A stretch of 64,000 nt of DNA, from assembly GCA_031761875.1 (NCBI GenBank), contig CP134492.1, forward strand, positions 868,001 through 932,000, read 5' to 3'. Below are positions 34,152-56,092 of this stretch, piece by piece. Below the pieces are notes generated by a model. The model saw nothing but the letters and a program-made list of their open reading frames with translations. It was not told the origin of the DNA and ran no database searches. The position numbers were made by a program, and so were the translations under genes. This DNA comes from Bacillaceae bacterium IKA-2. Lineage in GTDB: Bacteria > Bacillota > Bacilli > Bacillales > Anaerobacillaceae. The first letter of the stretch is position 1; the number at the start of each line of letters is the position of its first letter.

Positions 34152-34412
34152 TTGAATCTTCTTGATCGTTTAACTGTTGCCATAAAGGAAGCGATGAAGA
34201 ATAAGGAAAAGCAAAGACTCTCTGTTATTCGTATTGTTAAGTCAGCTTTACAAAATGAAGCGATTAAACTTAAAAAAAGAACTTACAGAAGACTAAGCGC
34301 TGACTGTTCTTAATCGTGAACTTAAACAACGCAAAGATTCCCTCCATAAGTTTAAAAAGGCGGGTTGTGAAGATCTAGCCGAAAAAGTACGAGAAAATAT
34401 TGAAATCTTAAA
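34152..34412 (+). pseudogene. yqeY: Decayed yqeY (GatB/YqeY domain protein)
   Basis: From a TTG at 34152 with GAGAGGGTG upstream, the translation starts MNLLDRLTVAIKEAMKNKEK and reaches LQNEAIKLKK, which is clearly YqeY. In the A7 run at 34272-34278 one extra base shifts the frame, so that the first frame stops at 34311-34313 (53 codons). The homology resumes in the next frame (ELTED, then LTVLNRELKQRKDSLHKF...ENIEIL) but contains a TAA at 34294-34296. The remaining 60 or so C-terminal residues of the family are absent; a terminator follows directly. The intact family has about 148 residues and may act in tRNA-dependent amidation or stress. Confidence 0.88.
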
Positions 34413-34418
34413 TAAAAC

Positions 34419-34447
34419 AACGCCTTGCCTTCCGCAAGGCGTTTTTT
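34419..34447 (+). terminator. Terminator of rpsU
   Basis: AACGCCTTGC pairs with GCAAGGCGTT (five-base loop), then T4. Confidence 0.88.
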
Positions 34448-46776: not shown

Positions 46777-47418
46777 GTGAAAAAAATCCAACTAAATAAG
46801 AGGCAAGAACATATTTTACAAATTGTAAAAGATGGAGGTCCGATAACGGGCGAAAAAATAGCTGAAAAATTATCTTTATCGAGGGCGACATTACGTCCAG
46901 ATTTAGCAATATTAACAATGGCAGGGTATTTAGATGCGCGCCCTCGGGTCGGTTATTTTTATACTGGAAAAAGTGGGATGCAACTGCTAACTGAGAGAAT
47001 AACAAAATTAACAGTTCAACAATATTCCTCAATACCCATTGTCGTAACTGAGTCATCGAACGTTTATGATGCTATTTGTACGCTGTTTTTAGAAGATGTC
47101 GGTACAATCTTTGTCGTTGATAATGAAACACACCTTGTAGGAGTTCTCTCAAGAAAAGATTTACTTAGAGCAAGTATTGGAAAGCAAATGCTTGAAACGG
47201 TACCGGTTAGTATTATCATGACAAGGATGCCAAATATAACGGTTTGTTTAAAAGATGATTTAATCATTGATGTAGCTAAAAAGTTGATTGAAAATCAAAT
47301 TGATGCTCTTCCAGTCGTTAAAATTAAGGCGGACGATAAATACGAGGTGGTCGGAAGAATTACAAAAACAAACATTACAAGGACAATTGTTGACCTTGCT
47401 AATGATGAGATAGTTTAG
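46777..47418 (+). CDS. ccpN: Gluconeogenesis repressor CcpN
   Basis: The 213-residue protein has an N-terminal helix-turn-helix (LNKRQEHILQIVKDGGPITG...LSRATLRPDLAILTMAGYLDARPRVGYFY) and two CBS domains that in B. subtilis sense ATP/ADP. There it represses gapB and pckA during growth on glucose. The start is uncertain: the GTG at 46777 gives the family length but overlaps GGGGCGGTGA, the only ribosome-site-like sequence. An ATC at 46786 would be at proper spacing. Confidence 0.92.
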   Translation: MKKIQLNKRQEHILQIVKDGGPITGEKIAEKLSLSRATLRPDLAILTMAGYLDARPRVGYFYTGKSGMQLLTERITKLTVQQYSSIPIVVTESSNVYDAICTLFLEDVGTIFVVDNETHLVGVLSRKDLLRASIGKQMLETVPVSIIMTRMPNITVCLKDDLIIDVAKKLIENQIDALPVVKIKADDKYEVVGRITKTNITRTIVDLANDEIV

Positions 47419-47455
47419 ATTTAGAGTGAAAATATTTTAGAAAATGGAGGAAAAA

Positions 47456-48271
47456 ATGAACCTAATAAACAAACACCCTATAGTATATGTTGTTTCCGAT
47501 TCTGTTGGAGAAACTGCAGAATTAGTAGTAAAAGCTGCAGCAAGTCAGTTTAATCACTCTAATATCGATATTAGAAGAATTCCCTATGTAGAAGATTTTG
47601 AGACAATTGAGGAAGTAGTAGCAATAGCTAAAGAAGTTAATGCCATTATTGCTTATACACTCGTTGTTCCAGATAAGAAGTTACACTTAATTAAACTAGC
47701 TGAAAAAGAAGGAGTAACAACTGTTGATATAATTGGTCCGATGATGAAGGGAATTCAGGATTTAACGCAAAGTGAACCGCGCTATGAGCCTGGTTTAGTA
47801 CATAAACTCGATGAGGACTATTTTCGAAAAGTCGAGGCGATAGAGTTTGCAGTTAAATATGATGACGGTAGAGACCCTAGAGGGATTATGAGAGCAGATA
47901 TAATTTTGGTTGGTGTATCAAGAACGTCTAAAACCCCCCTTTCTCAATATCTAGCACATAAAAGGTTAAAAGTTGCTAATGTTCCTTTAGTTCCAGAAGT
48001 CGATCCACCAGCAGAGCTTTTCTCTGTATCGCCTGAAAAGTGCGTTGGATTAACAATAAGTCCTGAAAAACTAAATGATATCCGTGCAGAACGATTAAAG
48101 GCATTAGGCTTAAAGGCAGAGGCTAATTATGCAAATATGGAAAGAATAAAAACAGAATTAGAATATGCCGAAAGAATAATGAACAAAATTGGCTGCCCTG
48201 TTATAAATGTCTCAAACAAGGCTGTTGAGGAAACAGCAAATTTAATTTGGAACATGTTTAATAAGAAATAG
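47456..48271 (+). CDS. Pyruvate, phosphate dikinase regulatory protein (PpsR/YqfL)
   Basis: The 271-residue bifunctional ADP-dependent kinase / Pi-dependent pyrophosphorylase has the P-loop-like GVSRTSKT (153-160), the start [13 protein letters not shown] and the C-terminal [10 protein letters not shown]. In B. subtilis yqfL modulates CcpN-controlled gluconeogenesis and is co-transcribed with ccpN, as here. TGGAGG (47445-47450) sets the ATG at 47456, not the one at 47444. Confidence 0.93.
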
Positions 48272-48276
48272 GTATC

Positions 48277-48317
48277 AAAAAGTACAGAGGTTTAGTTAAC
48301 CTTCTGTGCTTTTTTTT
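48277..48317 (+). terminator. Terminator of ccpN-yqfL
   Basis: AAAAAG-ACAGA-GGTT pairs with AACC-TCTGT-CTTTTT with small bulges, then T8. Confidence 0.75.
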
Positions 48318-48476
48318 GTTGATCTAAAAGCTAGGCGAGGGATCCTCAAAAAAAATAGTAGCAAAAAGAGAGGAATTAGCTTATAATTAAATATTGTAAT
48401 AAAAAATCATACATAATTTGTTACTAGAACAAATAAATTAGAAAAGTCAAGATATAATCTATTTTTTTTGGTAATG

Positions 48477-48508
48477 ATAGTAAAGGAAGATTATCCTTAC
48501 TATTTTTC
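48477..48508. other. AT-rich gap with one hairpin, no gene
   Basis: Between 48318 and 48615 no coding region is seen. ATAGTAAAGGA (48477-48487) and TCCTTACTAT (48494-48503) form a hairpin with one bulge, followed by TTTTC; it could be a relic terminator. Confidence 0.35.
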
Positions 48509-48615
48509 GGTTGTTGATTGCTACAGTCAAGAGATATAACGCTTTTGTAGCTACTTCCTAATAAGTGGAAAAAGAAAAAAGAAGGTTTTCTATAGGAGAT
48601 GTAGAATAGTAAATT

Positions 48616-48841
48616 ATGCGAAAAAGTCAGCAAACTGGATATGTTGACGCTGACGCTTTCCCTGTTAAAGGAGAGATTGAAAAGCTACACCAAAAGTACA
48701 ATCGCAAATTAGTGTTTGTAGCATCATACGCCTACATGATGCCCTAGTAAGTTTACAAGTAATGATATTAAAAATTTTTGTGAGGAATTTGAAAAAAAGT
48801 TGTCTAATAAAGCAGGATTTCAGCAAAAAAACTCGAATTAA
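48616..48841 (+). pseudogene. yqxD: Decayed yqxD (YaiI/DUF188 family)
   Basis: Frame 1 (48616-48747) reads GYVDADAFPVKGEIEKLHQK...KLVFVASYAYMMP and stops after 43 codons. It is the N-terminus of the YaiI/YqxD family, but with Phe for Cys in the DADACPVK motif. The next frame (48743-48841) reads PSKFTSNDIKNFCEEFEKKL..., the usual C-terminus. Roughly 70 middle residues are missing and the two ends are out of frame, so an internal deletion created the junction near 48740. yqxD is located between yqfL and dnaG in B. subtilis, exactly as here. Confidence 0.85.
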
Positions 48842-48878
48842 TATATTCCGGAGTGCTTAGTGAGAATGGTGTGAAAAA

Positions 48879-50687
48879 ATGGGTAGTAGAATTTCTGAAG
48901 AAAAACTCGAAAAAATAAGAAATTCTGTAGACATTGTAGATGTAATTAGTGAATATGTTCAACTAAAGAAACAAGGACGAAATATGATTGGCTTATGTCC
49001 GTTTCATGGTGAAAAAACGCCTAGTTTCTCAGTTTCAGCAGAAAAACAGTTATATCATTGTTTTGGTTGTGGAGCAGGTGGTAATGCCTTTTCTTTTATA
49101 ATGGCTATTGAAGGCCTTGAGTTTTTGGATTCTGTAAAGCGGCTTGGAGCACAAGTGAACATTGACTTACCAGAATTGGAAAAAAATGATGCGCCCGCTG
49201 CAACAAATGAACAAAATACAATGGTTGCTGGAAGTGAATTAGCTGCCAAACTGTATCATCATCTTTTAGTTCAAACAGAACAAGGTCAGGGTGCAAGAGA
49301 GTACTTATTACAAAGAGGTTTCAATACTGAAATGATTGAAACGTTTTCGATTGGATTTGCACCTGACACTTGGGATACATTAACTCTTTTTTTTGAAAAG
49401 CGAAATGTCCGCCTTGAACCGATGGAGCAAATTGGACTATTAGCTAGACGAGATTTTGACGGCAAGTTATTTGACCGCTTTAGAAATCGGATTATCTTTC
49501 CGATTTGGAACAAGGATGGAAAGGTAGTTGGGTTTGGGGGGCGAGTTTTAGGGAATGAGCAACCTAAATACTTAAACAGCTCAGACTCAAAAATTTTTAA
49601 TAAAAGTAATATTTTGTATGGATTACACATTGCAAGAATGGAAATCAGAAAAAAGAATGAAGCTGTTCTTTTTGAAGGATATGTAGACGTTATTAGTGCG
49701 TGGCAAGCTGGTGTTAAAAACTCTGTTGCCACGTTGGGTACAGCTATTACAGATCAGCAGGCAAAATTGATTAGAAGAAATGCGGAAACGGTAATTATTT
49801 GCTATGACTCAGATCAGGCTGGACTAAAGGCAACGTATCGCGCAATTGGTATTCTTGAGGCGCATAACTGTTATATTAAGGTGGCTAGACTCCCAGAAGG
49901 ATTCGACCCTGATGACTTTATCCAAAAATATGGTCAAGATAAGTTCCGAAGTGAGGTTATCGAAGCTAATCAAACACCGATGGCATTCAAAATGGATTAT
50001 CTAAGAAAAGGAAGAAACCTTCAGAATGAAGGAGAGAGAATGAAATATATAGAGGAAGTCCTCTATGAAATCACCTCCCTTTCTCGTGTTATTGAGAGAG
50101 ACCATTATTTGAGACAATTGGGAGAGGAGTTTTCCCTATCACTAGATGCCCTAAAGCAAGAGCTTTACCGGCTTAATAAACATAAAAAACGTCAAGGGAA
50201 TGATCAGACTACAAATGATATTCCTAAAGTGAAAACTACGTTTATAACGCAGAAAAAACTGTTGCCGGCATTCCATAATGCAGAGAAAATCCTTTTAGCA
50301 TACATGATGAAGGACATTACAGTTGCGCTAGCCGTGCAAGAAAAAATTAAAGGTAATTTTAATATTGACGAATACCACGCGATAGCTGCTCATTTATATG
50401 CATATTATGGAGAAGGTAATGAACCGAATTCAAGTCAATTCATTCAGAGACTTCAAGATGAAAAATTATCAAGGATTGCAACGGAAATTGCGATGATGGC
50501 GATAAGCGAGGAATTGTCGGAGCAAGAATTGAATGATTATTTAAAACGAATTACTAACTACCCAAAAGTAGTTGAAATCGAGAAAAAAGAAAAAGTTCGC
50601 AAAGAGGCTGAGAACAAGGAAGATCATTCTCAAGCTGCAAGAATTGCAATGGAAATCATTCAAATGAAAAAGGAATTAAAGCAATAA
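48879..50687 (+). CDS. dnaG: DNA primase DnaG
   Basis: The 602-residue primase synthesises RNA primers at the replication fork. The CHC2 zinc finger has C40, H43, C61 and C64; the catalytic TOPRIM core includes EGYVDVI and CYDSDQAGLKA; the C-terminal helical domain binds DnaB/DnaC helicase. GGTGTGA precedes the ATG. It starts the macromolecular synthesis operon with sigA. Confidence 0.96.
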   Translation: MGSRISEEKLEKIRNSVDIVDVISEYVQLKKQGRNMIGLCPFHGEKTPSFSVSAEKQLYHCFGCGAGGNAFSFIMAIEGLEFLDSVKRLGAQVNIDLPELEKNDAPAATNEQNTMVAGSELAAKLYHHLLVQTEQGQGAREYLLQRGFNTEMIETFSIGFAPDTWDTLTLFFEKRNVRLEPMEQIGLLARRDFDGKLFDRFRNRIIFPIWNKDGKVVGFGGRVLGNEQPKYLNSSDSKIFNKSNILYGLHIARMEIRKKNEAVLFEGYVDVISAWQAGVKNSVATLGTAITDQQAKLIRRNAETVIICYDSDQAGLKATYRAIGILEAHNCYIKVARLPEGFDPDDFIQKYGQDKFRSEVIEANQTPMAFKMDYLRKGRNLQNEGERMKYIEEVLYEITSLSRVIERDHYLRQLGEEFSLSLDALKQELYRLNKHKKRQGNDQTTNDIPKVKTTFITQKKLLPAFHNAEKILLAYMMKDITVALAVQEKIKGNFNIDEYHAIAAHLYAYYGEGNEPNSSQFIQRLQDEKLSRIATEIAMMAISEELSEQELNDYLKRITNYPKVVEIEKKEKVRKEAENKEDHSQAARIAMEIIQMKKELKQ

Positions 50688-55152: not shown

Positions 55153-56092
55153 ATTTGTCTTTCACTTTCGGCAGTATTTTATTTAAAGGGACTTTCTTTT
55201 CAATAGACCAAGTAGATGAGTCAGTTTCATCAAACTGTTCTAAAAAGGTAATAACTTCTTTTGTAATTGGTGTTGGTGTTGATGCGCCGCTTGTAACTGC
55301 TACTTTATCTATTCCTTTTAACCAATCAAGATTCAACTCTGAGATGTCTGAAATTCGATGCGATGTAGTTCCGGCAATCTCCTTTGAAACTTGGGCTAAT
55401 CGGTTTGAATTGTTACTTTTAGGATCACCAACAACGATAAGAAGATCTGCTTCCTTGGCTTGCTCAGCTACTGCTTCTTGACGAACTTGTGTAGCAAAAC
55501 AAATTTCATTATGAATTTCTGATATTGGATATTTATCGGTGGCAGCTTTCATAATATGAGATACATCCCATTGGCTCATTGTCGTTTGGTTTGTAATGAT
55601 AATATTTTCACTGTTGAGCGTAAGTTTTTCTACATCTTCCTCATTTTCAACGAGGTGAACATGTTTTGGTGCGACACCTACTGCCCCTTCTGGTTCAGGG
55701 TGATCTTTTTTGCCGATGTAGATAACTTCATATCCAGCGGCAACTTTATCTTTAATTAGATCATGAGTTTTTGTCACATCTGGACATGTTGCATCAACAG
55801 TTGTAAGTCCTCTCTCTTTAGCTAATTTACGTACTTCGGGTGAAATCCCGTGAGCGGTAAAGATAACGGTTCCTTTTTCAACCTTTTTTAAAATTTCGAT
55901 TCTGTTGGGACCATCTAGTGTAGTAATCCCATCTTCCGAAAAAGCATCTGTAACATGCTTATTATGAACGATCATCCCTAATATATAAATTGGTCTTGGC
56001 AAATCTAGGTTCTTCGCCGCTTGTCTAGCCAATACCATTGCATCTACAACACCATAGCAATAGCCACGTGGAGATATTTTAATAACTTTCAA
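55151..56092 (-). CDS. ispH: 4-hydroxy-3-methylbut-2-enyl diphosphate reductase
   Basis: The 313-residue Fe-S enzyme (LytB, YqfP) makes IPP and DMAPP in the MEP isoprenoid pathway. Cluster cysteines are in PRGYCYGV (C12), VDATCPDV and NEICFATQ. The start is TTG at 56090-56092 with AAGGAGGC ten bases upstream. Convergent with yqfO. Confidence 0.95.

Follow-up and report, generated by a model that had tools for sequence, protein, structure and literature searches.

Remnants of yqxD between yqfL and dnaG

The window (the whole 64,000-nucleotide stretch analysed, from Bacillaceae bacterium IKA-2) carries two separate ends of yqxD between yqfL and dnaG (Table 1). Upstream of yqfL lies a regulator that we take to be of the ccpN/yqzB type, and yqfL precedes the yqxD slot in all seven genomes of the genus alignment. 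The N-terminal end reads MRKSQQTGYVDADAFPVKGEIEKLHQKYNRKLVFVASYAYMM over 42 codons from its ATG and is followed by CCC and the stop TAG (48745-48747). The C-terminal end reads PSKFTSNDIKNFCEEFEKKLSNKAGFQQKNSN and then stops; because the TAG with which most relatives end this frame is CAG in the window, it continues for 6 more codons to TAA (48839-48841). In the alignment of the seven genus genomes both ends line up with the yqxD of the relatives, in register and between yqfL and dnaG, and the DnaG protein of the window is 78-81% identical to the dnaG matches of the six other members.

Table 1. Features in and around the yqxD slot (window coordinates)
Feature	Coordinates	Strand	Basis or remark
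HTH-CBS regulator, upstream neighbour	46777..47418	+	Pfam HTH_11 and CBS
yqfL (Kinase-PPPase), left flank of the slot	47444..48271	+	PF03618, E 1.1e-103
Distal sigma-H-like box, overlaps yqxD start region	48581..48607	+	Differs at one base from the strict pattern
yqxD N-terminal remnant, 42 codons, Cys-to-Phe in DADACPVK	48616..48741	+	Alignment, shuffle test
Deletion junction, frame change	48741..48743	+	Alignment with six genus relatives
yqxD C-terminal remnant, frame shifted by one	48743..48841	+	Alignment
Proximal sigma-H-like box in C-terminal remnant	48812..48838	+	Fits only with second element NNNGAAT
dnaG (primase), right flank, ORF intact	48879..50687	+	602-aa ORF

The identity of the two pieces was established by alignment to orthologues at the same place and not by Pfam, in which neither fragment any longer matches the DUF188 model (PF02639, the YaiI/YqxD family), the first giving one chance-level row and the second none. 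The N-terminal piece shares 24 of 42 residues with the YqxD of the genus member G006 and 26 of 42 with that of G005. Its alignment with the intact G006 protein scored 118 (maximum of 46 in 5000 shuffles), and that of the C-terminal piece scored 66 (shuffle maximum 48). An earlier note on this DNA had described yqxD as two out-of-frame ends joined near 48740, with the cysteine of DADACPVK changed to Phe and about 70 residues deleted. The two ends and the junction are borne out by the alignment, as is the altered motif, which reads DADAFPVK in the window and DADACPVK or DADSCPVK in the relatives; the deletion is instead larger, with ~254 nt (~85 codons) missing relative to the 153-codon G006 gene. 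An alignment of 27 DUF188 proteins revealed five invariant Asp (D6, D8, D58, D69 and D75), and the counterparts of D58, D69 and D75 fall inside the deletion. Judged from its sequence, the remnant would not be able to work as a DUF188 protein.

An intact DUF188 gene elsewhere in the genome

A PF02639 search of the window genome (G000; one contig, 4.42 Mb) for an intact paralogue found a full-length gene at G000:C1:2545628-2546017 (E 3.8e-40); its two other matches are weak and lie below the cut-off. The weak match at G000:C1:923582-923710 (window 55582-55710, minus strand; E 0.046) was taken as chance. The protein of the 2.546-Mb gene (L001) is a full family member, matching model positions 2-129 of 130 with 138.3 bits (cut-off 24.3, E 1.5e-40), and counterparts of all five invariant Asp of alignment A1 could be read by eye in its sequence. 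Since this gene is intact, DUF188 function need not be lost in the window genome.

The closest relatives of the 2.546-Mb copy, in a scan of named genomes whose use of this protein as query favours its relatives, belong to Salipaludibacillus (86 and 83% identity) and Salsuginibacillus (78%), and no dnaG was found in flanks of up to 5 kb at the 18 closest loci (L057-L074). DnaG of the window genome is 78-81% identical to that of the other genus members, and over its first 100 residues at most 75% identical outside it in the genomes compared, a set without Salipaludibacillus itself; the 86% identity of the 2.546-Mb copy to a protein of another genus therefore looks like horizontal transfer.

Broken yqxD and second DUF188 copies in the genus and order

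We compared the seven genomes of the genus, the window genome included, whose completeness ranges from 62 to 100%. G003, G005 and G006 have an intact dnaG-linked yqxD and no second DUF188 copy was found in them, one that could be missed in G003 (80% complete) and G005 (62%). G000, G001, G002 and G004 each combine a broken dnaG-linked yqxD with a second, intact DUF188 gene elsewhere (Fisher p 0.029). The four lesions differ: G001 has one frameshift; G002 combines an internal deletion with two in-frame stops and an additional frameshift; G004 retains ~25 N-terminal codons and the C-terminus, and its deletion breakpoints are not the same as those of G000. Mapped on a dnaG tree of poor resolution, the broken state takes two changes, a number not exceeded in 223 of 500 shuffles, and we regard the seven-of-seven pattern as suggestive only. 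A frameshift divides the dnaG of G006 (L027/L028) into two overlapping frames, probably a sequencing error since the gene is essential. Searches of family-level genome sets added nothing, the family holding only this genus.

The comparison was extended to an even draw of 249 genomes from the order (completeness of 90% or more, five from the genus), 237 of which contain a DUF188 match. The 12 genomes without a match at E 1e-4 (G018, G022, G097, G124, G130, G135, G150, G163, G174, G213, G222 and G244), seven of them in one family (f13), may have lost DUF188 completely. For 142 genomes outside the genus the position of dnaG was known, and among the best matches listed 85 have a single copy beside dnaG (25 families), 49 a single copy that lies elsewhere (11 families) and 8 have the gene in both places. 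Because the best-match list favours strong matches, 80 of the 90 remaining single-copy genomes were rescanned; each of the 80 copies is free of stops and covers almost the full model, a result that concerns completeness and not dnaG linkage. In four of the eight two-place genomes the dnaG-linked copy is broken (G013, G092, G108 and G171, the last by one frameshift), and the single-frameshift lesions of G001 and G171 could be sequencing errors. The other four (G055, G105, G147 and G166) keep both copies intact; redundancy thus need not lead to decay.

The gap between yqfL and dnaG was then searched for remnants at E 1e-3 or better, a threshold stricter than the best match to reversed sequence (E 0.014). 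Remnants of yqxD were found in 6 of the 49 genomes whose only copy is unlinked and in one of the 12 genomes without a DUF188 match (G135). Together with the genus and the two-place genomes, 14 genomes in all (4, 4 and 6, respectively) have a remnant beside dnaG and an intact unlinked copy, and the 15 remnants are spread over seven families. The presence of an unlinked copy differs between remnant loci (14 with, 1 without) and intact linked loci (4 with, 88 without; Fisher p 3.6e-13), a value that is descriptive since the genomes are related. The 43 unlinked-only genomes that show no remnant are presumed to reflect displacement as well.

These data bear on the reading that yqxD was simply dispensable here and decayed at random, the second copy being a coincidence. 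It is compatible with the 12 genomes that lack a DUF188 match, and G135, with a remnant and no such match at E 1e-4, indicates that loss without replacement does occur. The window also holds a broken yqeY (34155-34425), an N-terminal piece with a frameshifted continuation whose two overlapping out-of-frame parts at 34164-34425 cover model positions 2-88 of 143, for which a whole-genome search found no other place over the family cut-off. Against plain loss, 237 of the 249 genomes keep at least one DUF188 match and 14 of the 15 remnants, including all four in the genus, accompany an intact unlinked copy, which makes it unlikely. The gene loss in a conserved core block proposed in the earlier note is thus correct insofar as yqxD is dead and yqeY broken at their places; for yqxD, with its intact homologue elsewhere, the loss is better described as displacement of the resident gene by a homologue of different ancestry, a well-supported description.

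Sigma-H-like boxes at the retained ends

Sigma-H promoters have the consensus elements RnAGGAwWW and RnnGAATww, 11-12 nt apart. We searched with a strict pattern (RNAGGAWW, 10-14 nt, RNNGAAT) and with a relaxed second element (NNNGAAT). The distal box fits the strict pattern in six of the seven genus genomes, the window being the miss by one base, and the proximal box fits the relaxed pattern in five of seven, including the window genome. The same search was applied to 61 loci of the order in which the slot holds no intact yqxD, 49 from unlinked-only genomes and 12 from genomes lacking a DUF188 match. Of these loci, 35 have the distal box and 28 the proximal box (relaxed), as against none in reversed and reverse-complement controls and averages of 0.55 and 0.29, respectively, in mononucleotide shuffles. 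In a recount by eye without the seven remnant loci, the numbers were 31 and 22 of 54. A strict box anywhere in the gap occurs in 50 of the 61 loci, and several missed loci were seen by eye to depart from the first element at a single base. Of 20 loci examined upstream of unlinked copies, one has the strict pattern.

In B. subtilis the sigA operon is described as having seven promoters, two of them sigma-H dependent, in the passages on this operon in PMC2824700, and the yqxD entry in PMC12456014 places the gene under sigma-A and sigma-H; the title of Qi and Doi 1990 refers to a second SigH promoter regulating dnaE. By their sequence and position, the two retained yqxD ends may carry promoters of dnaG-sigA. 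A sigma-70 promoter search of window 48260-48900 gave 2 hits, both on the minus strand (2.8 expected), and an Rfam search of window 47000-50000 found no family at the gathering threshold. Two blocks upstream of yqxD (window 48375-48400 and 48430-48483) show strong conservation across the seven genus genomes, reading GGCTTATAATGAAATATTGTGAT and GTCAAGATTTAAT...TTTTGGTAATGATAGTAA in the relatives, and are possibly the main promoters of the operon. In the genus alignment the blocks that precede yqxD are conserved whether the gene itself is dead or alive.

Comparison of the window with G006 by blocks showed that 105 of 131 nt are kept in the upstream block and 35 of 39 in the distal box; the N-terminal remnant keeps 76 of 125, the C-terminal remnant 60 of 80 and the sequence after the stop 45 of 58. 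The differences in the N-terminal remnant fall mostly at third codon positions (10, 10 and 30 at the three positions), and those between the intact genes of G003 and G006 are distributed as 8, 8 and 18. From this bias, most of the divergence of the N-terminal piece probably arose under constraint before the gene died, and its death would be recent. The kept ATG and the third-position bias also accord with a second possibility, that the 43-aa N-terminal ORF is still translated as a leader peptide or a small protein aiding dnaG expression. This we consider improbable, since the corresponding stretch of G002 has two in-frame stops, the N-terminal part of G004 is down to ~25 codons, the N-terminal remnant has the lowest share of kept nucleotides of the five blocks, and the bias also fits recent death after long constraint.

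Ancestry of the unlinked copies

A tree was built of 64 DUF188 proteins from the fetched loci, with broken copies and near-duplicates excluded. In it the 43 unlinked Bacillota rows form one clade (99/99), apart from the 18 dnaG-linked rows. Within the genus, the second copies fall in two places: that of the window genome groups with Salipaludibacillus and Salsuginibacillus (99/91), and those of G001, G002 and G004, to which it is 64-67% identical, belong to a different shallow clade together with genomes of five other families. The genus has thus gained such a gene at least twice. That the distant copy is the old yqxD, moved and leaving a partial copy behind, would explain why one intact DUF188 gene remains in the genome, and was rejected as highly improbable, since that copy is only 44% identical to the dnaG-linked YqxD of G006 and lies in another clade (99/99), the remnant matching the dnaG-linked type.

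A two-gene unit carried by relatives

Eleven genomes of six families carry the DUF188 gene followed by a 63-aa ORF; the two lie in a block of ~0.7-1 kb that these genomes share at 82-95% nucleotide identity. By family, the carriers are G001, G002 and G004; G147 and G171; G055 and G092; G105; G108; and G154 and G203. The blocks of G001 and G147, which belong to different families, are 94.2% identical over 980 nt. Homology runs out close to the block boundaries in all comparisons but that of G154 with G203, which are of one genus, and the copies lie at unrelated chromosomal sites (contexts of second copies, L162-L171). Among the fetched contexts (12.5-13.5 kb from 13 genomes), nucleotide matches of >150 nt outside the block occur in only two pairs, each within one family. 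The 63-aa ORF is open in 10 of the 11 block copies; its Pfam search gave seven rows, none over the cut-off. Terminal inverted repeats at the block ends did not exceed shuffles in the five copies tested of the eleven. By eye, group II intron reverse transcriptase-like proteins were seen in the contexts L162, L164 and L165.

A 333-kb plasmid of Peribacillus asahii carries the block, with 91.4% identity over ~1 kb and both ORFs annotated, and in 15 Priestia plasmids the match is confined to the DUF188 gene (~84%). At the nucleotide level the 2.546-Mb copy of the window genome shares 68-71% identity with the copies in the two-gene units, and no small ORF was found after it, so it is not the unit of the relatives.

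Probable displacement of the resident yqxD

Taken together, we think it likely that the dnaG-linked yqxD has been subject to recurrent xenologous displacement, its ends being kept as promoters. The slot in the window would be the carcass of a vertically inherited, dnaG-linked yqxD, once the first gene of the sigA operon. A second DUF188 gene would have been acquired from a Salipaludibacillus- or Salsuginibacillus-like lineage and kept at 2.546 Mb, making the resident gene redundant and open to decay, in the course of which its middle was lost, with three of the five invariant Asp positions. Both gene ends would have been retained because putative sigma-H-like promoters of dnaG-sigA extend over them, at the start and at the stop of yqxD. 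We infer that acquisition came first and decay second, and the resident and acquired proteins are presumably equivalent in function.

As in xenologous gene displacement generally, a homologue of foreign ancestry takes the place of a resident gene, and plasmids can carry the replacement; the plasmid-encoded pantothenate genes of Rhizobium are an example (PMC3082293). Here, the resident gene is inactivated at its ancestral locus and an intact homologue of different ancestry lies elsewhere in the genome. Unlike the known cases, the displacement is recurrent in several families and strikes the first gene of a core operon, the states of decay are still visible, and promoter-like ends outlast the gene. 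None of the titles listed on DUF188/YaiI/YqxD and the sigA operon concerned displacement of yqxD. We regard the locus as a new and well-supported example of an evolutionary process that is already known; the retained promoter-like ends are unusual, and a plasmid-borne vehicle is seen for the copies of relatives.

In the sigA (macromolecular synthesis) operon of B. subtilis, yqxD (P23) occupies the same place before dnaG; unlike there, the window gene is dead and reduced to two ends. The slot without an intact yqxD resembles the Staphylococcus epidermidis operon, for which the passages on it in PMC2824700 give yqxD as absent between the yqfL homologue and dnaG and mention neither a remnant nor a replacement. 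An apparently trivial pseudogene amounts to a natural experiment: the DUF188 copy of the sigA operon, from a family found in 237 of 249 sampled genomes of the order and uncertain in function, appears exchangeable for one from elsewhere. This suggests that the job of the DUF188 protein is independent of its place beside dnaG and that sigma-H-like control of dnaG-sigA is independent of yqxD.

More speculatively, and with low probability in our estimate, the acquired DUF188 gene might be spreading in Bacillales as a small unit, plasmid-borne among other places, of a PIN-like nuclease and its 63-aa partner, entering scattered sites and time and again driving out the core copy, after which selection would keep no more of the dead gene than a two-promoter skeleton before dnaG. 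If that were true and the unit were toxin-antitoxin-like (addiction), this would amount to a selfish element reshaping the sigA operon.

Fold and possible function of DUF188 proteins

YqxD of B. subtilis is described as PIN-like and recovered among RNA-binding proteins, and yqxD affects the initiation of sporulation, according to the passages on the gene in PMC12456014. A DUF188 protein may act as a PIN-like RNase. A search for solved relatives by sequence returned 11 rows (EscU and others; best E 0.0035) that were taken as chance. The AlphaFold model of a Salipaludibacillus copy has a pLDDT of 91.7, and its best Foldseek row is Rae1/YacP (E 1.3e-3); a fold comparison of this model gave Z 9.1 (rmsd 3.4, 97 aligned residues), with unrelated rows reaching 8.7.
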